54,671 bases of DNA, taken from positions 1 to 54,671 of the forward strand of contig RXIG01000013.1 in NCBI GenBank assembly GCA_004212155.1, in the 5' to 3' direction. Numbering within the stretch: the stretch's first letter is position 1; every line of letters starts with the position of its first letter. Positions 36,159 through 52,517 of this stretch are shown one piece after another. Origin of the DNA: an archaeon. Lineage in GTDB: Archaea > Methanobacteriota_B > Thermococci > Methanofastidiosales > NM3. Below the pieces are notes generated by a model, which worked only from the letters and a program-made list of their open reading frames with translations, ran no database searches and was not told where the DNA came from. Made by a program: the position numbers and the translations under genes.

Positions 36159-36914
36159 TCAGTATGGCACTCCCTGCTCCCACAGGTAGTGGAAGTTGCG
36201 TCTGCACCAGAAGACGAACTCCTCATCGATGCCGACGATGTAGTTGGTGAAGTCGAACGTGCCGTCCTTGTCAAGAAACGATATCTGCGCCTCATGCGCA
36301 TCGATGATGCGCCCATGCATGTACATCTGGCCGCTATCGACCAACCGTATCTGTATGTTGTGGTCGATCTGTTCCTCGATATAGCTGCGCGAGTCGTCCG
36401 ATGCGAGGCTTTGTTTCGCGTAGATGAACTTCACGGGTATCTCGTTGATCTTGTCCTTGATGAGCGAGAGGTCTATCTTGATGACGTTGGGCGTGATCGC
36501 ACGGTACTGGTGCTTGCATGCGAGCAGTGCGTCACGCTCGGCGGCGAGGTAGTCGGTGGGGATCATGCGCTTGAACGAAACGTGTTCCCATATCCCGAAG
36601 TCCTTGAGTATCATCGGGGGGATTCGGTGTATCTGGTGATGGGCGACGAAGTCCTCGAGCACCCAGTTGTCAAAGGATGGCAGTGACGATATCCTCGTGA
36701 TGAGGAAGTATCCCTTTTCCGTAAGCACGTAGCCAGTGCCGATCTTAGATACGACGCCCATCTTGAGCAGATTGTTGAGCTCTGCCGAGGTCGTCTGCCA
36801 CGACAGGTCCGTCTTCGAGGCGATGTCCTTGCTCCTTTGCGGAGCGTCAATCGACATCGATTTCAGGATTTTTATCCTGTTCTTGCTCGAAACTAGGTAA
36901 CCGTAAAGCTTCAT
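36159..36914 (-). CDS. Winged-helix transcription regulator, FilR1/DUF1724 family
   Basis: 251 residues. An ArsR-like winged helix (about 1-75: NRIKILKSMSIDAPQRSKDI, then LSWQTTSAELNNLLKMGVVS) is followed by the FilR1 domain typical of methanogen regulators (FVAHHQIHRIPPMILKDFG and the end FWCRRNFHYLWEQG). The C-terminal domain probably senses a small molecule or another protein. It is read divergently from the Nudix gene out of a shared 60-base promoter region, so it may control that gene and itself. Confidence 0.82.
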   Translation of the reverse strand: MKLYGYLVSSKNRIKILKSMSIDAPQRSKDIASKTDLSWQTTSAELNNLLKMGVVSKIGTGYVLTEKGYFLITRISSLPSFDNWVLEDFVAHHQIHRIPPMILKDFGIWEHVSFKRMIPTDYLAAERDALLACKHQYRAITPNVIKIDLSLIKDKINEIPVKFIYAKQSLASDDSRSYIEEQIDHNIQIRLVDSGQMYMHGRIIDAHEAQISFLDKDGTFDFTNYIVGIDEEFVFWCRRNFHYLWEQGVPY

Positions 36915-38973: not shown

Positions 38974-41900
38974 ATGACGGAACACAATGTATCGACATAC
39001 CGTCTTGGATGGAGTGAAAAGATGACTGAAAGCAGTGTACTGGTCATAGGTGCCGGTATCACCGGCATTCAGGCAGCACTGGATCTGGCAGACAAGGGGT
39101 ATTCCGTATATCTTGTCGAGAAATCTCCTTCGATCGGCGGGGCAATGGCCAAGCTTGACAAAACGTTCCCTACGAACGACTGTTCAATGTGCACCCTTGC
39201 TCCCAAAATGGTCGAAACATCGAGACACCCTAATATACATTTATATACATACTCCGAGGTCGTTGGACTTGAGGGTGAGAAAGGGGACTTCACGGCATTG
39301 ATCAAGAAAAAACCCCGATATGTCATTGAAGAGAAATGCACAGGCTGTGGCGACTGTATCGCCAAATGTCCCATTGGAAAGAAGGGCGTGGACAGCGAAT
39401 TCGACCACGGCATGGGAAAGCGTGCAGCCATCTACATTCCATTTGAGCAGGCCTCTCCACTCGTTGCGACCATAGACGAGGAGAGCTGCCTGAAGTTCAA
39501 GACAGGTAAGTGTGGCATATGCCAGAAGGCGTGCCTCGCCGATGCGATCGACTTCGAGCAAGAGGAGGAGATCGAGGAGGTAACGGTGGGCGCTGTCATC
39601 GTTGCCACTGGCTACGATGTGCTCGAACCTACGATGAGGACCGAGTACGGATATGGTAAGTACAAGAACGTGATGACAGCCATTCAGTTCGAGAGGCTGA
39701 TGTCCGCATCAGGCCCTACGATGGGCCATATCAAGCGACCGTCCGATGGCGAGGAGCCACAAAAGATCGGATGGATACAGTGCGTCGGCTCCCGCAGCGA
39801 CAGGTTGGGAAACCCGTACTGTTCACGCGTGTGTTGCATGTACGCCACCAAGGAGGCGCTTGTCACCAAGGAGCACTCGCCACACATCGAACCATACATA
39901 TTTTACATGGACCTTCGTGCTTACGGCAAGGAGTTCGAGGAGTACTACAATCGCGCCGGCGAAACGGGCGTGCACTACATACGAGCACGACCCGCCGAGG
40001 TCTGGGAGGAGGACAACGGCGACATCACCATCAGGTACGAGGACACGTACACGGGAGAGATCAAGGAAGAGACGGTCAACATGCTCGTGCTCTCGTCTGC
40101 CATCGTCCCGGCTCAGTCGAACAAGGAGCTTGCAGAGGCGCTAGGCGTCAATCTTGACGGGAACGGATTCTTCTGCGAGCGCGAGGTCGTGACAGGCCCG
40201 ATGGAGTCCTCACGCCCCGGCGTGTTCCTCGCTGGCTGTTCGCAGTCGCCCAAGGACATCCCCGACTCGGTCGCACAGGCATCTGCCGCGGCGGCGAAGG
40301 TCATGGACATCCTTCCCAAGCCGGAGCGCATTGAAAAGGAAGAGATCGAGGAGACCGAGGTCCCCTCCGACGCTCCGCCACGCATTGGCGTCTTCCTCTG
40401 CAAGTGCGGTAAGAACATCGCGGGATACATGGACATGGACGACTTGATCGAATATGTCAAGACACTCCCCAACGTCGAGCACGCAGATACTCTCATGTTC
40501 GCATGTTCACAGGATGCGCAGGGAAAGATCAAACAGGCCATTGCCGACAGCGACCTCAACAGGGTCGTCGTGGCGGCATGCACACCGCGTACCCATGAGG
40601 GCCTCTTCCAGGACACCATCAGGGAGGTCGGTCTCAACAAGTACCTCTTCGAGATGGCAAACATCAGGAACCAGTGCTCATGGGTCCATTCCAACGATTC
40701 CAAGACGGCGACCGAGAAGGCAAAGGAGCTCGTGCGCATGTCGGTAGCCAAGTCACGCCTGCTCGAGGCGCTCTCGCAGGGCGAGATCGATGTCGAAGGT
40801 TCGGCTGTCGTCATCGGCGGCGGCATCTCCGGCATGAACGCAGCGCTGGCGCTCGCCGAGGCGGGCATCAAGGTATCGATCATCGAGAAGAGCGACAAGC
40901 TCGGCGGCATGCTCAACAATCTCACGACGCTCTACCCGAGCGACGTCAAGGCACAGGATGTCGTCGACGAGATGGCCAAGATGGTCAATGAGAACGAGAA
41001 TGTCACCGTCTACTACAACACATACCCCGAGGACATCGAGGGATACATCGGTAACTTCAATGTCAAGCTCAAGGACCACGAGGACACCTTGCATGCCGGT
41101 ACGCTCATCATCGCCACTGGCACCGAGCCCATCGATGCGACGGGTCTTTACAACTACGAGAACAGCGACAAGATCATCACACAGGTCGAGCTCGAGGAGA
41201 TGCTCAAGAACGGCACCTTCCCCAAGGACGTAAAGGAAATCGCAATGATATCCTGTGTCGGGTCACGTGAGGACACGGGCCGTACCTACTGCTGCCGTGT
41301 TGGATGTGGCACGATGCTGCGCAACTCCAAGGCGATCAAGAAGCTCTCTCCAGACACGGAGGTCTTCGTCCTGTTCAGGGACATGCGCTCGTTTGGCAAG
41401 AACGAGGAGGAGTACTACGTCGACGTTCAGGAGAACTACGGCGTGAAGTTCCTCAGATACGAAAAGGACCAGAAACCACAGGTCGACGTCGAGGGCGACA
41501 AGCTCGTGCTCACAGTGCACGACATGCTCCTTGGCGAGGATCTTGAGCTCGAACCCGACATGATCGTGCTCACGACGCCCACCGAGGGCAAGAACGCCGA
41601 GCTCGCCCAGATGCTCAAGGTGCCTGTTTCCGGCTCTGGCGGTTTCTTCATGGAGGCACACGCCAAGATACGACCGCTCGACTTCGCGACCGACGGCATC
41701 TATGTCTGCGGATGCGCACACGCGCCCAAGGGTGTGGCCGATGCGCTCGCACAGGCCATCGGCGCGGCATCACGCGCGGCCGTTCCCATCTTCGAGGAGC
41801 GCGTCAAGGGCGAGGCCATCGTAAGCAGCGTCGACCCGGACAAGTGCATCGGTTGCGGCATATGCGCAAGCCTGTGCCCGTATGGTGCCATCGAGGTCGT

Positions 41901-42054
41901 CGAAGGAAAGGCCGAGTCGAACAAAGCATTGTGCAAGGGCTGTGGCACATGTGCATCAGCATGCCCGCAGTTCGCCATCAAGATGCCGCATTACACCGAT
42001 GTCCAGATCGTTGAACAGATCAGGGCTGCCTGCAACAAGGCGGGGGGTGCGTAA
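38974..42054 (+). CDS. Double-module HdrA (heterodisulfide reductase subunit A-like)
   Basis: 1026 residues, against about 650 for usual HdrA. Module 1: Rossmann FAD site VLVIGAGITG (22-31), the HdrA motif NDCSMCT (68-74), an inserted ferredoxin part with CTGCGDCIAKCP (122-133) and a second Cys set (CLKFKTGKCGICQKAC, 172-187). Next comes the HdrA N-terminal-type domain (from about 472, PRIGVFLCKCGKNIAGYMD), then module 2 with VVIGGGISG near 612-620, which lacks the CxxC and inserted ferredoxin. The end (about 957-999) has two [4Fe-4S] motifs, CIGCGICASLCP and CKGCGTCASACP. HdrA is the FAD subunit that splits or joins electron flows; two modules in one chain could copy its dimer. GGTGA precedes the ATG. 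Confidence 0.9.
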   Translation: MTEHNVSTYRLGWSEKMTESSVLVIGAGITGIQAALDLADKGYSVYLVEKSPSIGGAMAKLDKTFPTNDCSMCTLAPKMVETSRHPNIHLYTYSEVVGLEGEKGDFTALIKKKPRYVIEEKCTGCGDCIAKCPIGKKGVDSEFDHGMGKRAAIYIPFEQASPLVATIDEESCLKFKTGKCGICQKACLADAIDFEQEEEIEEVTVGAVIVATGYDVLEPTMRTEYGYGKYKNVMTAIQFERLMSASGPTMGHIKRPSDGEEPQKIGWIQCVGSRSDRLGNPYCSRVCCMYATKEALVTKEHSPHIEPYIFYMDLRAYGKEFEEYYNRAGETGVHYIRARPAEVWEEDNGDITIRYEDTYTGEIKEETVNMLVLSSAIVPAQSNKELAEALGVNLDGNGFFCEREVVTGPMESSRPGVFLAGCSQSPKDIPDSVAQASAAAAKVMDILPKPERIEKEEIEETEVPSDAPPRIGVFLCKCGKNIAGYMDMDDLIEYVKTLPNVEHADTLMFACSQDAQGKIKQAIADSDLNRVVVAACTPRTHEGLFQDTIREVGLNKYLFEMANIRNQCSWVHSNDSKTATEKAKELVRMSVAKSRLLEALSQGEIDVEGSAVVIGGGISGMNAALALAEAGIKVSIIEKSDKLGGMLNNLTTLYPSDVKAQDVVDEMAKMVNENENVTVYYNTYPEDIEGYIGNFNVKLKDHEDTLHAGTLIIATGTEPIDATGLYNYENSDKIITQVELEEMLKNGTFPKDVKEIAMISCVGSREDTGRTYCCRVGCGTMLRNSKAIKKLSPDTEVFVLFRDMRSFGKNEEEYYVDVQENYGVKFLRYEKDQKPQVDVEGDKLVLTVHDMLLGEDLELEPDMIVLTTPTEGKNAELAQMLKVPVSGSGGFFMEAHAKIRPLDFATDGIYVCGCAHAPKGVADALAQAIGAASRAAVPIFEERVKGEAIVSSVDPDKCIGCGICASLCPYGAIEVVEGKAESNKALCKGCGTCASACPQFAIKMPHYTDVQIVEQIRAACNKAGGA

Positions 42055-42057
42055 GAT

Positions 42058-42807
42058 ATGGCTGAAGAAGAGAAGTTTGAACCAAAGATCGTAGCATTCA
42101 CGTGCAACTGGTGTTCATACGCAGGTGCCGACCTTGCCGGTACCTCCCGTATACAGTATGCCCCCAACTTCAGGGTCATACGCGTCATGTGTTCGGGCAG
42201 GGTGGAACCAACCTACATCCTCGAGGCACTGCAAAACGGTGCCGACGGCGTGTGTGTGCTTGGTTGCCATTTTGGCGACTGCCACTACATCAGCGGTAAC
42301 TACGAGGCGAAACGAAGGATGGAACTGCTCACCAAGCTGTTCCGCGACACCGGAATGGACGAGCGCAGGATCATGATCGAATGGGTCTCCGCCTCGGAGG
42401 GTGAGCGATTCGCAGAGGTCGTCAACGACTTCACGGAACAGATACGTGATCTGGGACCTTTGCCTGAAGATTACCAAGAGAAACTCTCTCTCATCAAGGG
42501 AGCACTCGAAGCAGAACGACTGAGGATCGTGCTCGGCTCGACCAAGCGCGCCTTTGCAAGCGGCGGTGTCGAGGAGGAACGCTACAACGAGGCCCTCTAT
42601 ACCATCGCAAAGGAGGAGATCGAACGGGTCTTGCTCCTCGAGGCACTAGAAAAGAACGGACCAAGCATCGTTCCCGAACTTGCTGAGTACGTCGGTGTCC
42701 CGAAGACGCGCATCTGGAGACACATCCTCGCCATGACGATGAAAAACATCATCGAGGTCGTCGGAGAGAGGGACCACTACATGGAGTACCAGAGGAGGGG
42801 TCAGTAA
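42058..42807 (+). CDS. MvhD-like iron-sulfur subunit with a C-terminal winged-helix-like extension
   Basis: 249 residues, where MvhD/FlpD has about 140. The N-terminal 140 residues are complete Mvh[27 protein letters not shown] and [20 protein letters not shown] bear the conserved cysteines of the [2Fe-2S] site that passes electrons from a donor enzyme to HdrA. The extra 100 residues start with a helical region (about 150-205) and end in [20 protein letters not shown], the shape of a winged helix. Such a domain could bind DNA or, more likely in a complex, a protein. Three bases after hdrA; its stop shares a base with the next start. Confidence 0.88.
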
Positions 42808-43976
42808 TGGCCATCAAACAAGATGAGATGGACTTGGAGTTCTCCAAGAAGCTTGCCAAGGAGATTGGAGACAGCTTCCAGAAATGCTTTCAGTGTGGTA
42901 CGTGCACCGCACGCTGCCCGGCCGGCAACGTTTCACAGTACCGAGTACGAAAGCTCATGAGAATGGCCCAGCTCGGTCTCAAGGAACGCATATTCGACTC
43001 AGACGAGATATGGAACTGCACGACATGCTCGACATGCAAGATACTTTGTCCATGGGGCGTCGACACCGTTTCAACGATCCTGCGACTGCGTGCAGAGGCG
43101 GTCGATGCAGGCCACGAGAACAAGAAGCACGACCCGTTGGTCAAGAGCCTGCAAAGCTATGACAATCCCTGGTTGCAGCCTCGCTCTGCCAGGCGCAAGT
43201 GGTACAAGAAGCTCGATAACGTCGTCGACCTCTCGAAGAAACCGGGAGAGGCCGATGTGCTCTACTATGTCGGATGCACGGCAACGTTCGACCCGCGGCT
43301 GTGGAACATGGCGCAAAGCGTCGTCAAGGTCCTCGCCAAGGCGGGCATCACCGTCGGTGTGCTCGGCAAGGAGGAGAAGTGCTGTGGCGGCACCGTGCGC
43401 GGTGTTGGCCACCCTGACATCTTCGAAGGTCTTGCCAAGCGCAACATCGAGGACTTCAACAATTCTGGGGTCGACACGATTATATTCTCGTGTCCGGGTT
43501 GTCTCAACACGGTCATGAACGCTTACAAGGACATAGGCGAGATAAAGCCTCGAATGGTCCATGTCGTCGAGTACGTTGCCGAACTCTTAGAGAAAGGCAA
43601 GCTCAAGCTCGACAAGGACGTCGGAAGGATCATCACCTATCACGATCCATGCCACCTTGGCAAGCATTGTGAGGTATTCGATCCGCCACGGGATATCCTC
43701 AAGGCCATCCCAGGCGTCGAGTTCAAGGAGATGGACTTCATACGCGAGAACTCATGGTGCTGCGGCGCCGGCGGCGGCGTCAAGACCGCATACCCCGACC
43801 GTGCGACCGAGCTTGCTTCAAACAGGCTCAAGGAGGCCGAGGATACCGGTGCGGACACCATCACGAGCGCATGTTCATTCTGTTATCAGAACTTGCTTGA
43901 CGGCATAAAGCAGAGCGACTCGAAGTTAGAAATGAAGGATATAATGGAAATCGTTGCGGAGGCGATTGAAGAATGA
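42807..43976 (+). CDS. HdrC-HdrB fusion (HdrD-like) protein
   Basis: 389 residues. The N-terminal HdrC part has two cubane motifs, CFQCGTCTARCP (27-38) and CTTCSTCKILCP (71-82). The C-terminal part has two CCG domains, the first around YYVGCTATF, CCGGTVRGVG and SCPGC, the second with YHDPCHLGKHCEV, WCCGAGGGV and SACSFC, so both non-cubane-type sites look complete. The family includes HdrD, GlpC and similar disulfide or quinone-linked reductases; the thiol or other substrate here is unknown. The start is coupled to mvhD (TAATG). Confidence 0.9.
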   Translation: MAIKQDEMDLEFSKKLAKEIGDSFQKCFQCGTCTARCPAGNVSQYRVRKLMRMAQLGLKERIFDSDEIWNCTTCSTCKILCPWGVDTVSTILRLRAEAVDAGHENKKHDPLVKSLQSYDNPWLQPRSARRKWYKKLDNVVDLSKKPGEADVLYYVGCTATFDPRLWNMAQSVVKVLAKAGITVGVLGKEEKCCGGTVRGVGHPDIFEGLAKRNIEDFNNSGVDTIIFSCPGCLNTVMNAYKDIGEIKPRMVHVVEYVAELLEKGKLKLDKDVGRIITYHDPCHLGKHCEVFDPPRDILKAIPGVEFKEMDFIRENSWCCGAGGGVKTAYPDRATELASNRLKEAEDTGADTITSACSFCYQNLLDGIKQSDSKLEMKDIMEIVAEAIEE

Positions 43977-46261
43977 TTGGCGTTTTCATCTGCTTTTGCG
44001 GTAACAACATCGGTGGTTACATTGATGTGCAGCAACTCACCGACTACTTCAACGAGGAGTATCCAGCGGACGATGTTGTAGCATTCAACACCACCTTCCT
44101 CTGTTCAGAGATTGGACAGGACTTAATAAAAGAAAAGATAGAGGAGCTCAATCTTGACGCCGTCGTGATCGCGTCATGCTCACCCAAGCACCACGGTGCA
44201 ATCTTCCAGGCCTGCATAGGCGAGAAGATGAACCAGTACCGCTGGGAGTTCGCAAACATTAGGGAACAATGTGCATGGGTGACACCGAACAAGAAGAATG
44301 CCACCGAGAAGGCCAAGGCGATTATCAGCGGCGCCATAGAAAAGTCACGACTGCTCGAGGACATCGGGTCGACGCGCGTACCCGTTACCAAGGATATCCT
44401 CGTCATTGGCGGGGGAATTACAGGCATGCACGCTGCGCTTGAGCTCTCTGCCAAGGGTTTCCATGTGCATCTCGTTGAGAAGAAGGAGACTGTTGGCGGT
44501 AACATGGTGCGCTTCGACAGGGTATTTCCCACTGATGACTGTGCCATGTGCACCAGCTCTCCGATACTTGCCGAGGTCGCCATGGACCCGCTTATTGACA
44601 TCTACTCCCTTTCCGAGGTCACCGAGGTCAAGGGTCGACCTGGCGAGTACGATGTGACCGTCGTGAAGCAACCGCGCTACATCGACGAGACGAAGTGTAC
44701 GGCGTGTGGCGACTGCACAGCCCACTGTCCCGTGGAGGTATGGAGCGAGTGGGACGAGGGCATGGGCCTACGTGCCGCCACCTACAAGCCGATGGCACAG
44801 GCAGTGCCGCTCAAGAACAGGATCAACATGGACTCGTGCATACGCTGCGGCACATGCGAGAACGTATGCAAGGCCGAGGCGGTCATGTACAACGAGGAGC
44901 CAAAGGAGTTCACTATGAAGGTCGGCGCGATACTCGTCGCGACGGGCTATGAGCTCATCGACCTCAAGAACACCGAGTACCACCAGGAGCACCCCAACGT
45001 GATCAGCGGCCTGCAGCTCGAGCGATTGAAGGTCCCTTCAGGCCCGACGGCCGGCGAGATACTACGGCCTTCAGACGGCAAGATGCCAAAACATCTTGTA
45101 TTCGTTCAGTGCGCGGGTTCGCGAGACCGGCGCTACAACGTCTATTGCTCGAAGATTTGCTGCATGTATGCGACTAAGAACGCGCGACTCATCAAGTCCG
45201 AGAACCCCGACATGAAGATAAGCATTTGTTATATCGACATGCGTACCGCTGGACGCGGGTATGAGGAGTTCTTTGACAAGGCTCGTGAGATGGGAATCAA
45301 CTATATACGTGGCAATGTGTCAGAGATTGTTCCTGACGGAGAGGACCTCATCCTTAAGGTCGAGGACACGTTCACAAGCGAACCCCTTGACCTCAAGGCG
45401 GATCTCGTCGTGCTCTCAAGTGGCCTCATACCCTCGCAGGGGACCAAGGACGTGGCAAGCACGATACACCTTGTCTCAGGTGCCGATGGCTTCCTTGCAC
45501 CTGTGCACGTCAAGATCGCTCCGGTAGACACTGCTACGAAAGGCATATTCATCGGTGGCACGACCGAGGCACCAAAGCCTATTCAGGAATGTATCACCGA
45601 TGCAGGCCTTGTAGCTTCGCGTATTGCTTCGTTCCTCAAGGACGACGATATCGAGATTGATCTCACGACATCAAAGATTAATCCCGAGATATGTATCAAG
45701 TGCGGTACATGCGCCGAGAACTGCGTCTACGACGCTATCGACACCACTGGCGAGAACTACGAGGTGCTCGACGTGTCGTGCATGGCGTGCGGCAAGTGCT
45801 CGGTCACATGCCCCACCAACGCTATCGACCTATCGCTCTACACTGAGGACCAGGTTATCAAGCAGATCGACGGTATCCTTGCGGAGGACCCTGATAGCAT
45901 CATCGGGTTCTCGTGCTACCAGTGCGGCTACAACGCAGCGGATCTCGCAGGCACTGCAAAATCGTTCATCGACCCCAAGATCAAGGTCGTGCTCGTACCC
46001 TGTTCGGGACGTGTCACGATGCAGCATATGCTCTATCCCTTCTTCAAGGGTGCACGGGGTGTATTTCTCGCTGCATGCCTTGAGGGGCAGTGCCACTACA
46101 TCGATGGCAATCTGCAGGCAAAGGAGAAGGTGAAGCTTGCCAAGAAGGCGCTTGACGTCATGGGCGTCGGCGGCCACAAGCTCAACCTCTTCAACATGTC
46201 CTCTGCAGAAGGGCCTAAATTTGTCGCAGCTGCGAAGAGGATGGTGGAAATATGCCAGTAG
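43973..46261 (+). CDS. HdrA-MvhD fusion protein
   Basis: 762 residues. In order: the HdrA N-terminal domain (MIGVFICFCGNNIGGYIDVQ), FAD site VIGGGITGMHAAL at about 146-151, the motif DDCAMCT near 188-193, four [4Fe-4S] motifs (CTACGDCTAHCP from 242, CIRCGTCENVC from 289, CIKCGTCAENC from 574, CMACGKCSVTCP near 603), and from about 640 a full MvhD domain (GFSCYQCGYNAADLAG, CSGRV, CLEGQCHYIDGN). Natural HdrA-MvhD fusions show that the two work side by side. All residues expected for FAD and cluster binding seem present, so this may be the working bifurcating HdrA. It overlaps the gene before by four bases (ATGA). Confidence 0.92.
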   Translation: MIGVFICFCGNNIGGYIDVQQLTDYFNEEYPADDVVAFNTTFLCSEIGQDLIKEKIEELNLDAVVIASCSPKHHGAIFQACIGEKMNQYRWEFANIREQCAWVTPNKKNATEKAKAIISGAIEKSRLLEDIGSTRVPVTKDILVIGGGITGMHAALELSAKGFHVHLVEKKETVGGNMVRFDRVFPTDDCAMCTSSPILAEVAMDPLIDIYSLSEVTEVKGRPGEYDVTVVKQPRYIDETKCTACGDCTAHCPVEVWSEWDEGMGLRAATYKPMAQAVPLKNRINMDSCIRCGTCENVCKAEAVMYNEEPKEFTMKVGAILVATGYELIDLKNTEYHQEHPNVISGLQLERLKVPSGPTAGEILRPSDGKMPKHLVFVQCAGSRDRRYNVYCSKICCMYATKNARLIKSENPDMKISICYIDMRTAGRGYEEFFDKAREMGINYIRGNVSEIVPDGEDLILKVEDTFTSEPLDLKADLVVLSSGLIPSQGTKDVASTIHLVSGADGFLAPVHVKIAPVDTATKGIFIGGTTEAPKPIQECITDAGLVASRIASFLKDDDIEIDLTTSKINPEICIKCGTCAENCVYDAIDTTGENYEVLDVSCMACGKCSVTCPTNAIDLSLYTEDQVIKQIDGILAEDPDSIIGFSCYQCGYNAADLAGTAKSFIDPKIKVVLVPCSGRVTMQHMLYPFFKGARGVFLAACLEGQCHYIDGNLQAKEKVKLAKKALDVMGVGGHKLNLFNMSSAEGPKFVAAAKRMVEICQ

Positions 46262-48282
46262 AGGGTGCTGAAAAGGTTCAAAATGAAGCAGCAGAGTACA
46301 AAGCTCAATCTGGTGAAAACGAAATGGACCAAGAAGCGAACAAGACACCGAAGGTAGAAGGGTGTGAATTCGGCGATGTTGTCGATTGTGTCACATGCAA
46401 ACGCTGCTCACTCGTGTGCCCCACCGAGCTCGATCTTGAGAGGGTCGTACGGATCCACCGATATATCAAGGACTCATACGGGCAGGTAAAGGGGTCCCAC
46501 AGGGACGTCTTCCGGCTCGCCTCGAAGCTTTCGGGCATGGCCGACGCCCAGGGATGGCTTACAGGCATCGATGAAGGCGATGACATCGTTTTCTTCCCCG
46601 GCTGTGCAGCCCTATTTGATTTACTCCTCCAGCGAGACACCAATTACAGCGGCAATGCGAAGGCAGCGGCGCTCACGCTCAACAAGCTCGGCTACAAGCC
46701 CGAGATCGTCTACGGCTGCTGTGGGCACGACCTTTACTACTCGGGCGCACTCGATGAGTTCGAGTTGATCAAGGCTGAGAACATGGAAAAGCTCAAAGGC
46801 AAGAAAATCGTCGTCAGTTGTGCAGAGGGCTACCACATGTTCAAGAACATCTACGGTCTTGATGTCGTGGGATTCGAGGAGTTCGTTCTCGAACACAATC
46901 CAGAATTCGTCAACACTGATTTAAAGACCACGTACCACGACCCGTGCAGATACGGCCGTTACAACGAGGTATATGACGCACCACGTGAGGTGCTTAAAAA
47001 GGCCTCAGACTTCCGAGAGATGGAAAACATCCGCGAGGAGGCGATATGCTGTTCCGTATCGGCTTGGATGAACTGTAACAAGTACTCAAGGGACACGAGG
47101 AAAAAGCGTCTCGAGGAGGCCAAGGCAACGGGCGCGGACTACCTTGTTACCGCCTGTACGAAGTGCAGTATCCACCTCGACTGTATTCATTTCGAAAAGA
47201 ATAGTGAAGATGCAGAGGCGCTCGAGGATATCAAGATACTTGGTACCGCCCAGGTCGTAGGCTATGCGCTTGGCGTGTACGACCCCTTCAAGGAGGAAGT
47301 AGATTACATAGTTCCAGAGACTGCAGGCAAGTTCCTCGAACCACTCAAGATACAAAAGAACGTCGATCAGTATATCGATGATGAACTTCTCGACAACGCA
47401 TTCCTCTGCACGACATGTAAGAACTGCACCATCGTTTGCCCTAATCATCACGATACGGCAAGCATGATGGAGGAGTTCAGGTCGGAACTTGTAAAGAAAG
47501 ACCTTGGGCCTGAAAAGCATAGCAAGATCGCAAAGGCAATCATGAACACCGGTAACGCATTTGGCGAGAAGGAGCCGATGACGCCTCATCCCAACGAGAA
47601 GGCAGAGTACATTTACTACCCGGGCTGCGTTGCGAACTACCGTCGAGATGATGTTTACCAGGCCACCAAGAAGATTCTTGACCTGCTAGACGTCGACTAC
47701 GAGATCCCAGAGGGTCTCGTGTGCTGCGGCTCTGTCCTTAGAAGGGCAGGCCACGAGGACGAGTTCCAGGACATTCGAGAGAAGAACACGGAACTGCTCA
47801 GGGGTAAGAAGGTGATCTGTTCGTGTTCTGGTTGCTATGCAACGCTCAAGAAGGACTACGAGGGACTTGACGTCTACCACATCACCGACATCGTGAAGGA
47901 AAACATCGACAAGCTGCCGCTCAAGGAGGTCAAGAAGAAGGTCATGTACCATGACCCGTGCCACCTTGGCAGGAAGTTCGAATACTACGACATCCCTCGA
48001 GAGATCATCGAGGCAGTCCCCGGCGTCGAGCTCATCGCCTTCGAAAAGGAGAAGGAGAACGCCCAGTGTTGTGGTGCTGGCGGCGGTGTGAAGTCGGCAA
48101 AGCCCGACATCGCAAACAATCTCGCGAAGAAGAAGATGGACGAGGCCAAGGAGAAGGGTGCTGACATGGTCGTTTCGGCATGTCCGTTCTGTGAGCTCAA
48201 CCTCAACGACAACTGCGAGGAGATCCCTGTGGTCGACATCCTCAATCTTCTTATGGAGTCGCTCGGGGAGGTGAAGGAATGA
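46252..48282 (+). CDS. Double HdrD-like protein (two HdrC-HdrB modules), first module degenerate
   Basis: 676 residues, about twice an HdrD-like chain. After an acidic lead of about 35 residues, module 1 has only one clear cubane motif (CVTCKRCSLVCP, about 44-55) and a CCG pair in which the second is altered: the usual CCGAGGG reads CCSVSAWMNC. Module 2 has CTTCKNCTIVCP, then YYPGCVANYRR, VCCGSVLRRAG, SCSGCYATL and the intact second CCG domain YHDPCHLGRKFEY, CCGAGGGVKS, SACPFC. Module 2 should therefore be active while module 1 may be structural. Overlap with hdrA-mvhD is ten bases, with GGTGG before the ATG; it joins hdrC by ATGA. Confidence 0.88.
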   Translation: MPVEGAEKVQNEAAEYKAQSGENEMDQEANKTPKVEGCEFGDVVDCVTCKRCSLVCPTELDLERVVRIHRYIKDSYGQVKGSHRDVFRLASKLSGMADAQGWLTGIDEGDDIVFFPGCAALFDLLLQRDTNYSGNAKAAALTLNKLGYKPEIVYGCCGHDLYYSGALDEFELIKAENMEKLKGKKIVVSCAEGYHMFKNIYGLDVVGFEEFVLEHNPEFVNTDLKTTYHDPCRYGRYNEVYDAPREVLKKASDFREMENIREEAICCSVSAWMNCNKYSRDTRKKRLEEAKATGADYLVTACTKCSIHLDCIHFEKNSEDAEALEDIKILGTAQVVGYALGVYDPFKEEVDYIVPETAGKFLEPLKIQKNVDQYIDDELLDNAFLCTTCKNCTIVCPNHHDTASMMEEFRSELVKKDLGPEKHSKIAKAIMNTGNAFGEKEPMTPHPNEKAEYIYYPGCVANYRRDDVYQATKKILDLLDVDYEIPEGLVCCGSVLRRAGHEDEFQDIREKNTELLRGKKVICSCSGCYATLKKDYEGLDVYHITDIVKENIDKLPLKEVKKKVMYHDPCHLGRKFEYYDIPREIIEAVPGVELIAFEKEKENAQCCGAGGGVKSAKPDIANNLAKKKMDEAKEKGADMVVSACPFCELNLNDNCEEIPVVDILNLLMESLGEVKE

Positions 48283-48848
48283 GCCAGGAAGCAGCGGTTG
48301 AAGAGAAAAAGAAAGACGAATACGAACTCGACGAGTTCCAGAAGATCATGGATCAAAGCAACATCCTCAAGTGCGTCCAGTGCGGCAAGTGCACGGCAGG
48401 ATGTCCTGCAGGACGGGAGTCACGCATTCGCATACGTGAGCTCATCCATCTTGCCCACGAGGGAAAGGACCTCAAGGACGCGCCCGAGCTATGGTACTGC
48501 ACAACATGCTACAATTGCCAGGAACGATGCCCCAAGGGTGTCGACACCACCGAGGCAGTGATATTCCTGCGCAACAGGGCAGTCCGTAAGGGTCACCACA
48601 ACTTCCCGGACCTCCACGTTACCGCCATCACGTCACTTCGCGACCAGGGCGATGGCTTCCCACTGAGTCCCGAGGTGGAAAAGATCCGCTCGGTCATCGG
48701 CCTTCCGCGAAAACCTATCGACCTGGCCCATGACGAGGAGTTCCTTAAGGACTTCCAGAAACTCATCGACGAACTGGGCATCCTCGACCTCGTCAAAGAG
48801 GCACAGGCCCAAAAGAAGGAAGAAGAGGAAGGTGAGGAAGATGAGTGA
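48279..48848 (+). CDS. hdrC: HdrC (heterodisulfide reductase subunit C)
   Basis: 189 residues, the usual HdrC size. It carries electrons from HdrA to HdrB through two [4Fe-4S] clusters: CVQCGKCTAGCPAG (about 28-41) and CTTCYNCQERCPKG (about 73-86). The motif SRIRIRELIHLAHEGKDLKD lies between them and matches authentic HdrC. The C-terminus is a strongly acidic tail. It overlaps the previous gene (ATGA) and the next by eight bases. Confidence 0.93.
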   Translation: MSQEAAVEEKKKDEYELDEFQKIMDQSNILKCVQCGKCTAGCPAGRESRIRIRELIHLAHEGKDLKDAPELWYCTTCYNCQERCPKGVDTTEAVIFLRNRAVRKGHHNFPDLHVTAITSLRDQGDGFPLSPEVEKIRSVIGLPRKPIDLAHDEEFLKDFQKLIDELGILDLVKEAQAQKKEEEEGEEDE

Positions 48849-49788
48849 ACAGCAGGTTACTCAGGAACAAAACGAGTCACAGGAACAGCAGGTGGCCCAG
48901 GAGCAAGTGCCGGAGCGATTCTCGCTCTTCCCTGGATGCATCGCCAAGAACATGTACCCATCGATCGAGAAGTCGACCCGCATCGTCTTCGAGAAGATCG
49001 GCATCGAGCTGCTCGATCACAAGTATTCCTGCTGCCCGGCGCCTGGTGTGTTCCGAGGATATGACAGGAACACCCACATGACCCTCGGAGTGAGAAATCT
49101 CGTCATGGCCAATCAGGACGGCGTGGACGTCCTTACGATATGCAACGGATGCTACGGATCCCTTTGGGAAGCCAATCACATGTTCAAGAAGAGCAAGGAG
49201 AATCAGGAGTTTGTCAACAAGATGCTTGAAAAGATTGGACTCTCCTACGATGGTTCCACAGAGGTCTACCACTTCGCCGACATCCTTCACAAGCACCTCG
49301 ATGACATTAAGGCCAACAAGGAGATCGACCTCGGCCTCAAGGTCGCTATCCACTACGGATGCCACTACCTTCGTCCGTCTGAGAAGCATCCCGACATCAA
49401 TCCAGAGGCCCCCCATATCGTTGAGGACATCGTCGAGGCGCTCGGATGCGAGAGCTTGGAGTTCAAGAACAAGCTTTCCTGCTGCGGTGCAGGCGGCGGC
49501 GTGTGGAGCGGGGCAGAAGATGTTGCGCTCAAGATACTTGATGACAAGATGAACAAGATCGAGGAGGTCGGAGCAGACTGTGTCGTCAACATCTGTCCGT
49601 TCTGCCACCTGCAGCTCGACCAGGGCCAGGCGAAACTCAAGACGCACAAGGTCCCCGTGCTTCATCTCAGCGAGCTCATCGGTCTTGCGTTCGGTGTGCG
49701 ACCCAAGCACCTTGCCATGCACACGCACATGGTCTCCACACGTGACATCGAGAAGAAGGTCAAGAAGGCCAAGAAGGAATCAGACTGA
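48841..49788 (+). CDS. hdrB: HdrB (heterodisulfide reductase subunit B)
   Basis: 315 residues. The true start is the ATG at 48841 behind GGTGAGGAAG; a longer frame from 48730 overlaps hdrC. Both CCG domains with the non-cubane cluster cysteines are complete: FPGCIAKNMYPS, the CC in YSCCPAPGVF and CNGCYGSLWE form the first set; HYGCHYLRPS, SCCGAGGGVWSG and NICPFCHLQLD the second. This is the heterodisulfide-type active site. The first 25 residues are Gln/Glu-rich. It is the last gene of the operon; a T-rich tract follows. Confidence 0.93.
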   Translation: MSEQQVTQEQNESQEQQVAQEQVPERFSLFPGCIAKNMYPSIEKSTRIVFEKIGIELLDHKYSCCPAPGVFRGYDRNTHMTLGVRNLVMANQDGVDVLTICNGCYGSLWEANHMFKKSKENQEFVNKMLEKIGLSYDGSTEVYHFADILHKHLDDIKANKEIDLGLKVAIHYGCHYLRPSEKHPDINPEAPHIVEDIVEALGCESLEFKNKLSCCGAGGGVWSGAEDVALKILDDKMNKIEEVGADCVVNICPFCHLQLDQGQAKLKTHKVPVLHLSELIGLAFGVRPKHLAMHTHMVSTRDIEKKVKKAKKESD

Positions 49789-50723: not shown

Positions 50724-52517
50724 ATGGCTGATGATTCTCAATCCACCTCCCTCTCTGGCAGTTCTATCTACAAGGCACTGGACTTCCACAAGGTCGGCCT
50801 TATTATCGGCCTCATCGTCTTTGTTGCCATTGTGCTCGCACCCCATCCCGCATCCATGGACCGCAGCGGTTACAATGAGCTTACCTCTCGGCTGCCTGAT
50901 GAGACACTCGTTCGTATAGACAATGAGTTCGGGCCCGTCAACGAGGACAACTTCAAAGAGTTCCTAGAATACTCCAAGACCATACGCGTGGCCACAGGGT
51001 CCACCTCACCGCGCTTCATCACTGAGGAGGCCTACCATGCGCTGGACGACACGTCGTCGTTCAAGGGCCCCACAACGCTCTATGAGCTCATCAAGGGGCA
51101 GGGGAGGGCGCAGATGCGGGTGTTGGCCCTCGCCCTGCTCATGGCCATCTGGTGGATCACAGAGGCCGTTCCCGTACCGCTCACCGCCTTGCTCCCGATG
51201 GTGCTCCTCCCCATGTTGCGCGTGTGCAACTTTCGCTACGCGGTCTATCCTGGGTACTTCTCGGCCTTCGAGCAGTATGCCCACTACCTCATCTTCCTCT
51301 TCCTCGGCGGGTTTGTCATCGCAGCAGCGATGCGCCGCTGGGGCCTGGACAAGCGCATATCGCTTACTATCCTTAGCATCTTCGGCACGAAACCCTCGCG
51401 CATCATCCTCGGATTCATGGTATCGACAGCTTTTCTTTCGATGTGGATATCAAACACCGCGACGACGGCGCTCATGATGCCGGTCGCGCTGGCGGTCCTC
51501 ACACAGGCGAAGGTGCGGCCTGGCGAAAGTGGGTTCGGCCTTGGCCTCATGCTCTCAATCGCCTATGCGGCATCGATCGGCGGCATAGGCACGCTCATCG
51601 GCACGCCGCCCAACGGCATCGCCGCCGGGTTCATCTCTCAGTTCGTGGGCAAGGAGGTGACGTTTGCCTCGTGGATGCGCATAGGCCTTCCTCTCGTCGT
51701 GATATTCCTTCCCATCGCCTGGCGCTACATCCTGTGGCGCTGTCCTCCTGAGACCACGGAGCTAGAAGGGGGAAAAAACGTCATCAAGGACAATCTGGGA
51801 AAGCTCGGCGCACTCTCGCGCGGGGAAAAGAACACCCTGGCCGTCTTTTTGGTCACCGCCGTGCTCTGGGCGACCCGTTCGTCGATCGTCATCGGTGATA
51901 CGACGATCATCATAGGTTGGTCCACGTGGTTTGGTGGCTACTTCTCGTGGGTGCACGACAGTACCGTCTCGATACTTGCGGTGATACTTCTCTTCCTTTT
52001 GCCTGTGAACTTCAGGAGCGCCACGTTCACCATTGACTGGAAATCAGTGGAAAAGTATGTCCCGTGGGGGACTCTCCTGCTCTTTGGCGGTGGCCTGACG
52101 CTCGGTCAGGCGGTAGCCAATACGGGAATGGCATCATGGGTCGCATCGTATCTCACGATGCTTGCGTCCGTACCAATCATCATACTCCTCTTTGCTATCG
52201 TTGCGCTCTCGGTCCTGCTCTCGGAAGTCACCTCCAACACTGGCACGGCCTCGATGCTGATGCCGGTGATGTTTGCCCTGGGCACTGCCATGGGTAGGGA
52301 TCCTTCCGCATTCATGATCACAGCCGCTGTCGCCACGTCGCTCGTGTTCATGTTGCCGGTCGCGACACCACCCAATGCCATCGTCTTCGGCACAGGCTAC
52401 GTCAAGATCGATAAAATGGCAAAGACAGGCATCTTTCTTGACATGATCGGCATCATCGTATGGACGCTCGTGCTCTACTTCATCGTGGGCAAGTTCTTTG
52501 GCATCGTACTCATCTAG
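50724..52517 (+). CDS. DASS/SLC13-family Na+/carboxylate (or sulfate) symporter
   Basis: 597 residues with about 11-12 membrane helices. The two SNT motifs that bind Na+ and the carboxylate are present: WISNTATTALMMPVALAVL in the first half and SEVTSNTGTASMLMPVMFAL in the second; GGIGTLIGTPPNGIAAGF is a further family signature. An unusual feature is the extra domain of about 90 residues between the first helix (around 24-42) and WWITEAVPVPLTALLPM, which should lie outside the membrane. It probably imports dicarboxylates such as succinate or malate. A TATA-like GGTTATTAATCAT (about 50679) and GGTGA before the ATG give a short leader. The stop overlaps the convergent gene by eight bases. Confidence 0.9.
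   Translation: MADDSQSTSLSGSSIYKALDFHKVGLIIGLIVFVAIVLAPHPASMDRSGYNELTSRLPDETLVRIDNEFGPVNEDNFKEFLEYSKTIRVATGSTSPRFITEEAYHALDDTSSFKGPTTLYELIKGQGRAQMRVLALALLMAIWWITEAVPVPLTALLPMVLLPMLRVCNFRYAVYPGYFSAFEQYAHYLIFLFLGGFVIAAAMRRWGLDKRISLTILSIFGTKPSRIILGFMVSTAFLSMWISNTATTALMMPVALAVLTQAKVRPGESGFGLGLMLSIAYAASIGGIGTLIGTPPNGIAAGFISQFVGKEVTFASWMRIGLPLVVIFLPIAWRYILWRCPPETTELEGGKNVIKDNLGKLGALSRGEKNTLAVFLVTAVLWATRSSIVIGDTTIIIGWSTWFGGYFSWVHDSTVSILAVILLFLLPVNFRSATFTIDWKSVEKYVPWGTLLLFGGGLTLGQAVANTGMASWVASYLTMLASVPIIILLFAIVALSVLLSEVTSNTGTASMLMPVMFALGTAMGRDPSAFMITAAVATSLVFMLPVATPPNAIVFGTGYVKIDKMAKTGIFLDMIGIIVWTLVLYFIVGKFFGIVLI

Follow-up and report, generated by a model that had tools for sequence, protein, structure and literature searches.

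Several systems built on heterodisulfide reductase (Hdr) parts have been described. Type II HdrA, HdrA-MvhD fusions and expanded HdrA/HdrD clusters are already in the literature, and two studies (PMC12054007, PMC9012536) describe in outline the kind of cluster treated here. The expanded type II HdrA cluster of ANME-2/3 and Methanosarcinales includes FdhB and Molybdop, and two bifurcation events have been proposed for it (PMC12054007, PMC9012536), both of them inside the single type II HdrA protein (PMC12054007). Complementary domains and Cys197 in fused HdrAs have already been noted (PMC9012536). In Elp-Hdr, F420H2 is fed to Hdr by ElpABC, and a mobile arm belonging to one HdrA serves the FAD of its partner HdrA; in Methanococcales, a single MvhD has been proposed to work with two donors (PMC12350162). 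HdrA2B2C2 of Methanosarcina needs no additional subunit to oxidise F420H2 (PMC5296606).

We analysed a window of 54,671 nucleotides, the whole of one contig (C14) of a 28-contig, 1.49 Mb archaeal genome that is 89.8% complete. The genome carries mcrA and methanogenesis marker 2, and was searched by family beyond this contig. Seven genes (g1 to g7) occupy positions 38974–49788 of the forward strand, with a gap of 3 bases at the first junction followed by overlaps of 1, 4, 10, 4 and 8 bases. The operon and its conserved neighbour are as follows (operon coordinates include stop codons).

38974..42054, + strand: g1, type II HdrA of two fused HdrA halves, 1026 aa; two HdrA flavin modules (Pfam/NCBIfam)
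42058..42807, + strand: g2, MvhD with a helical C-terminal extension of ~110 residues; FlpD, 187 bits
42807..43976, + strand: g3, HdrCB fusion (HdrD/TfrB-like), 389 aa; HdrC and HdrB fused, 2 CCG, two CxxCxxCxxxC motifs
43973..46261, + strand: g4, HdrA-MvhD fusion (type Ia, HdrA2-like), 762 aa; NF040770 (HdrA2), 818.7 bits, cut-off 1100
46252..48282, + strand: g5, double HdrCB protein, 676 aa; 4 CCG domains in one chain
48279..48848, + strand: g6, HdrC, 189 aa; TIGR03290, 119.5 bits, cut-off 160; two [4Fe-4S] motifs
48841..49788, + strand: g7, HdrB, 315 aa, ATG at 48841; TIGR03288, 346.7 bits, cut-off 345.15
50724..52517, + strand: DASS-family (sodium-coupled) anion symporter, a conserved neighbour outside the putative complex (NCBIfam/Pfam reading)

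An earlier note on this DNA had described seven joined genes with the parts of a bifurcating Hdr enzyme. Coordinates and Pfam/NCBIfam matches bear this out: there are three HdrA flavin, two MvhD, four HdrC-like and four HdrB-like modules, 13 in total, and the residues described below support the assignment of the parts. Its statement that no MvhAG, FdhAB or FrhB-like gene lies nearby also holds. The contig has no PF00374 (hydrogenase) or PF04432 match, none of the neighbours that were read with Pfam is a redox donor or an FdhA, and the locus does not qualify as an Mvh-Hdr or Fdh-Hdr cluster. No membrane gene lies inside the operon, so the HdrE cytochrome b of membrane HdrDE is absent. Promoter and terminator scans performed no better than chance level, and an Rfam search returned tRNAs only.

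The conserved position of the DASS symporter suggests a functional link with the Hdr operon; an ORF for a membrane protein of the same size lies 3' of the operon in two related loci (at 976 bp in L064 and 81 bp in L065). A gene for a winged-helix regulator (36159–36914; weak match to FilR1) precedes the operon on the other strand, and its upstream position is conserved in the relatives L063, L064 and L065. Elsewhere in the genome, pairs of GlcD-like oxidase and HdrD-like genes adjoin aldehyde ferredoxin oxidoreductase-like genes (L025 and L028, contigs C20 and C1). At L029 (G000:C1:68000-79000), malic enzyme has as its neighbours a flavoprotein of fumarate reductase and a subunit like TfrB, with fumarase-like genes upstream, a possible CoM/CoB thiol-dependent fumarate route.

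The order, a small one, is represented by 21 genomes in four families. mcrA is present in the host family (f1) and in f3, and was not found in f2 or f4 of this sample. The pattern fits the published Methanofastidiosales (PMC9635834), to which the genome probably belongs; f1 would then correspond to the NM3/Nuwarchaeales family and f4 to Theionarchaea. The operon is kept by all five f1 genomes (three genera), in the same gene order and at 70–98% identity, and is therefore not a chance arrangement. In two of these genomes a contig end cuts the operon after g5, and one of the two is also cut inside g1. Neither a donor gene nor a PF04432 match adjoins the operon in any of the five, two of which are <85% complete, and the locus is thus not a type II HdrA-Molybdop-FdhB cluster.

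We mapped functional residues using the solved HdrA of Methanothermococcus (PDB 5odc) as the reference. The N-terminal half of g1 holds Cys194/197 (Cys73 = Cys197), the bifurcation residues E240 and K293 (E356 and K409 of the reference, both kept), the inserted ferredoxin and the TrxR cluster, and has neither N-domain nor C-terminal ferredoxin. The C-terminal half has the N-domain and the C-terminal ferredoxin, lacks Cys197 and the inserted ferredoxin, and retains the glutamate, with K409 replaced by arginine in all five f1 genomes. Having two TrxR/FAD domains, of which one carries the N-domain and the other Cys197, g1 classes as a type II HdrA (A3). When 11 type II HdrAs were aligned, C194/C197, E356, K409 and all eight inserted-ferredoxin cysteines of the N-terminal half were invariant in every one. 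In their C-terminal halves the input-arm cysteines are kept, with one exception, and the inserted ferredoxin is absent in those inspected; glutamate and lysine are both kept in five proteins from other clusters, the lysine is arginine in four (the f1 rows) and both residues are lost in two (proteins of the C20 type described below). The FAD module with E356 and K409 that is expected of soluble bifurcating HdrABC occurs in the N-terminal half of g1 and in g4. Three bifurcation sites were considered and ruled out, because the C-terminal half of g1 lacks the inserted ferredoxin and K409. By residue mapping, the full bifurcation signature is carried by two flavins of the operon, not three. Since its halves hold complementary parts, g1 itself looks like one complete engine split over a fused HdrA pair, by analogy with Elp-Hdr. 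The AlphaFold model of g1 has a pLDDT of 46.6.

g4 keeps both E356 and K409, along with the cysteines of its N-domain, TrxR, ferredoxin and MvhD parts. It is a complete HdrA with a C-terminal MvhD, as in type Ia HdrA/HdrA2; we class it as HdrA2-like, not HdrA2, on its score below the curated value, and its identity to HdrA-MvhD proteins outside the order is at most ~43%. The other MvhD, g2, is 54–59% identical to solved MvhD/ElpC. Its C-terminal extension is conserved within f1 and also in the long MvhD that the sister family f4 carries; it had no match among solved structures, and may be a bridge between HdrA units instead of a donor dock. In the sister family, the MvhD with the long extension (42500–42807 in g2) lies between two HdrA genes. 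The cluster-motif cysteines of g3 are kept in 6/6 homologues, and both non-cubane cysteine sets of g7 are conserved. An HdrB with two such sets and an HdrC with two [4Fe-4S] motifs are thus provided by g7 with g6, and also by g3. The two HdrC parts of g5 have only one CxxCxxCxxxC motif each. In its first HdrB site, Cys193 reads G/G/G/C/D across the five family members, and one member has lost three more cysteines; this site is eroding. Full-length relatives of g5 were found only in f1 and f4 (115 genomes of the phylum and 396 archaeal genomes were sampled).

The earlier note had placed the electron donor elsewhere in the genome, and donor modules are indeed present there: Frh on contig C1, Mvh on C24, Fdh on C17, and FdhB with an FdhA-like protein on C20. 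The other HdrA genes of the genome adjoin a donor, namely Mvh (C24), FdhA (C17) or FdhB with the FdhA-like protein (C20), and among these Hdr clusters only the seven-gene operon never has one. The C20 cluster is a separate, FdhB-bearing type II HdrA cluster. It was read in three of the five family genomes; G016, which has a type II HdrA plus an FdhB match, and G017, which has an FdhB match alone, probably carry it too. Its FdhA-like protein (L024, 11880–13325) has no Pfam match at 1e-10, and is in keeping with a non-catalytic, ElpA-like scaffold. FrhA or FrhGB (F420 chemistry) occurs in all five family genomes.

The nearest clusters outside the order that combine type II HdrA with an HdrA-MvhD fusion have a joined FrhB in G217 (HdrD-FrhB-HdrA_II-MvhD-HdrA2) and G304 (HdrD-FrhB-HdrA_II-HdrA2), and none in G224. 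The earlier description of the operon as having no dehydrogenase partner is therefore true of the f1 operon in its five genomes and does not extend to cognate clusters of other archaea. Because these carry a joined FrhB, the missing partner is a trait of the lineage, not of this kind of cluster. We also considered the orphan FrhB proteins of the genome as the missing donor; none is clearly sister to the FrhBs of Hdr clusters in a poorly resolved tree.

We regard the operon, with middling confidence, as a soluble heterodisulfide reductase system that is linked to F420H2 and contains two engines for flavin-based bifurcation. Gene content, residues, conservation, the FrhB-bearing cognate clusters and the donor genes elsewhere are observations; complex formation, donor and direction are proposals. 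The first engine would be g1. Its C-terminal half would give the input arm (N-domain and C-terminal ferredoxin, together with the MvhD g2), and its N-terminal half would contribute the inserted ferredoxin, the outlet cluster and the FAD at which bifurcation takes place; g3 would receive the high-potential electrons. The second would be g4, whose HdrA2-type chain is complete and includes an MvhD; it would feed the HdrC and HdrB of g6–g7 as well as g5. Each engine would split its electrons between ferredoxin and a disulfide, either CoM-S-S-CoB or one like it. The likeliest donor would be F420H2, entering via the HdrA2-type subunit or via an FrhB/FdhB-type subunit that is encoded elsewhere and docks on MvhD. 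It is favoured by the joined FrhB of G217 and G304, by Frh in all five genomes as against MvhA in three, and by two precedents, the unaided oxidation of F420H2 by HdrA2-type enzymes and the F420H2-fed Elp-Hdr. Several points weigh against it: the operon has no recognisable F420 site, g4 falls below the HdrA2 cut-off and is distant from its counterparts outside the order, no FrhB of the genome is clearly sister to those of Hdr clusters, Mvh and Fdh are also available in trans, and the genomes are few (n = 5). In addition, the sister family, where mcrA was not found, may use a substrate other than CoM-S-S-CoB.

The sister family provides the case for a possible, though less probable, alternative, in which one transcript yields two separate enzymes, g1–g3 and g4–g7, each served by a donor of its own and perhaps acting on a separate disulfide. 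In f4, genes for the HdrA2-like protein, the double HdrCB, HdrC and HdrB form one operon (L058, L059), and genome G019 has a two-gene operon of type II HdrA (53%) and HdrCB (62%) (L103). These two orthologous units are found on separate contigs (L103 and L058), and G020 has the second unit without the first. Because its parts lie apart in the sister family, the seven-gene operon looks, from these comparisons, like a join of two units: type II HdrA-MvhD-HdrCB (g1–g3) and HdrA2-type HdrA-double HdrCB-HdrC-HdrB (g4–g7). The earlier note had left the choice between one large complex and two that share parts; the split of g1 and g3 from g4–g7 adds weight to the latter. However, the two units are joined by overlapping genes in five genomes of three genera, and type II HdrA again adjoins HdrA2 in similar clusters of other archaea. 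Two separate enzymes can also be reconciled with F420H2 as the donor.

A second Mvh-Hdr complex, in which MvhAG encoded on contig C24 docks on the MvhD of g2 or g4 and H2 drives the system, is unlikely. The Mvh genes are in the genome, and a sister-family cluster that combines type I and type II HdrA with the long MvhD ends in MvhG-MvhA (HdrC-HdrB-HdrA-long MvhD-type II HdrA-MvhD-MvhG-MvhA; L104, L105). In that cluster, however, it is a separate short MvhD that adjoins MvhG, the long one lying between the HdrA genes. MvhA, which already sits with its own HdrA and MvhD, occurs in three of the five family genomes and was not found in two operon carriers, G018 (96% complete) and G015. We give a similarly low rating to a single asymmetric seven-subunit machine that runs two bifurcation engines in series, uses several HdrB-type sites on different disulfides and needs no dehydrogenase of its own; in the sister family, which has no detected mcrA, the disulfide served by its second half would not be CoM-S-S-CoB. 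In another archaeon (L199, G321:C92), three separate HdrA genes lie in a run of HdrC-HdrB-HdrA-HdrA-HdrA(MvhD)-X-HdrC-HdrB, with no donor gene seen.

A formate-driven system is improbable. The cluster hdrC-hdrB-hdrA-mvhD-X-fdhA, or its hdrA-fdhA part, occurs in 5/5 family genomes (L030, L211–L214) and could lend Fdh subunits, but it already includes an HdrA, plus HdrBC and MvhD where it is intact, and nothing links it to the seven-gene operon. The poorest candidate is entry of electrons at the HdrD side, with g3 and g5 as ports for a GlcD-like 2-hydroxyacid oxidase: both proteins resemble TfrB, LdhH and GlpC, the genome has separate GlcD-HdrD pairs and Chloroflexota join GlcD-HdrD-HdrA-MvhD (L067, L068), but these pairs own their HdrD and a GlcD gene adjoins the operon in no relative.

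In the published texts, we found no description of the donor-less seven-gene order, of the double HdrCB protein or of the split counterpart in relatives without detected mcrA. The lineage, which comprises mcrA-bearing archaea and these relatives, is poorly known, and the donor is to be found biochemically. The published texts allow the following comparisons. Like Elp-Hdr of Methanothermobacter marburgensis (PMC12350162), which is driven by F420H2, not H2, the operon pairs Hdr with an MvhD-type connector; Elp-Hdr differs in its ElpA/ElpB donor subunits, for which the operon has no genes, and in its symmetric HdrA dimer. HdrA2B2C2 of Methanosarcina acetivorans (PMC5296606) shares the HdrA fused to MvhD, HdrB/HdrC and the absence of a donor subunit, whereas it has no type II HdrA and no HdrCB proteins, and g4 scores below the HdrA2 cut-off. 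The operons of G217 and G304 (L202, L204) also place a type II HdrA (45–49% identity to g1) beside an HdrA-MvhD fusion (39–40% to g4), plus HdrD; unlike the seven-gene operon, they have a joined FrhB, no double HdrCB and, within the stretch examined, no HdrB/HdrC. The expanded type II HdrA cluster of ANME-2/3 and Methanosarcinales (Lyu 2025, PMC12054007; Chadwick 2022, PMC9012536) has type II HdrA, MvhD, a second HdrA, HdrD-like and HdrBC parts in common with our operon, which is distinguished by its different lineage, by having neither FdhB nor Molybdop, by a second HdrA of the HdrA2 type with fused MvhD, and by the extra double HdrCB protein. The operon offers a small natural system in which to test the workings of type II HdrA, since its residues suggest one engine where two events have been proposed (PMC12054007).
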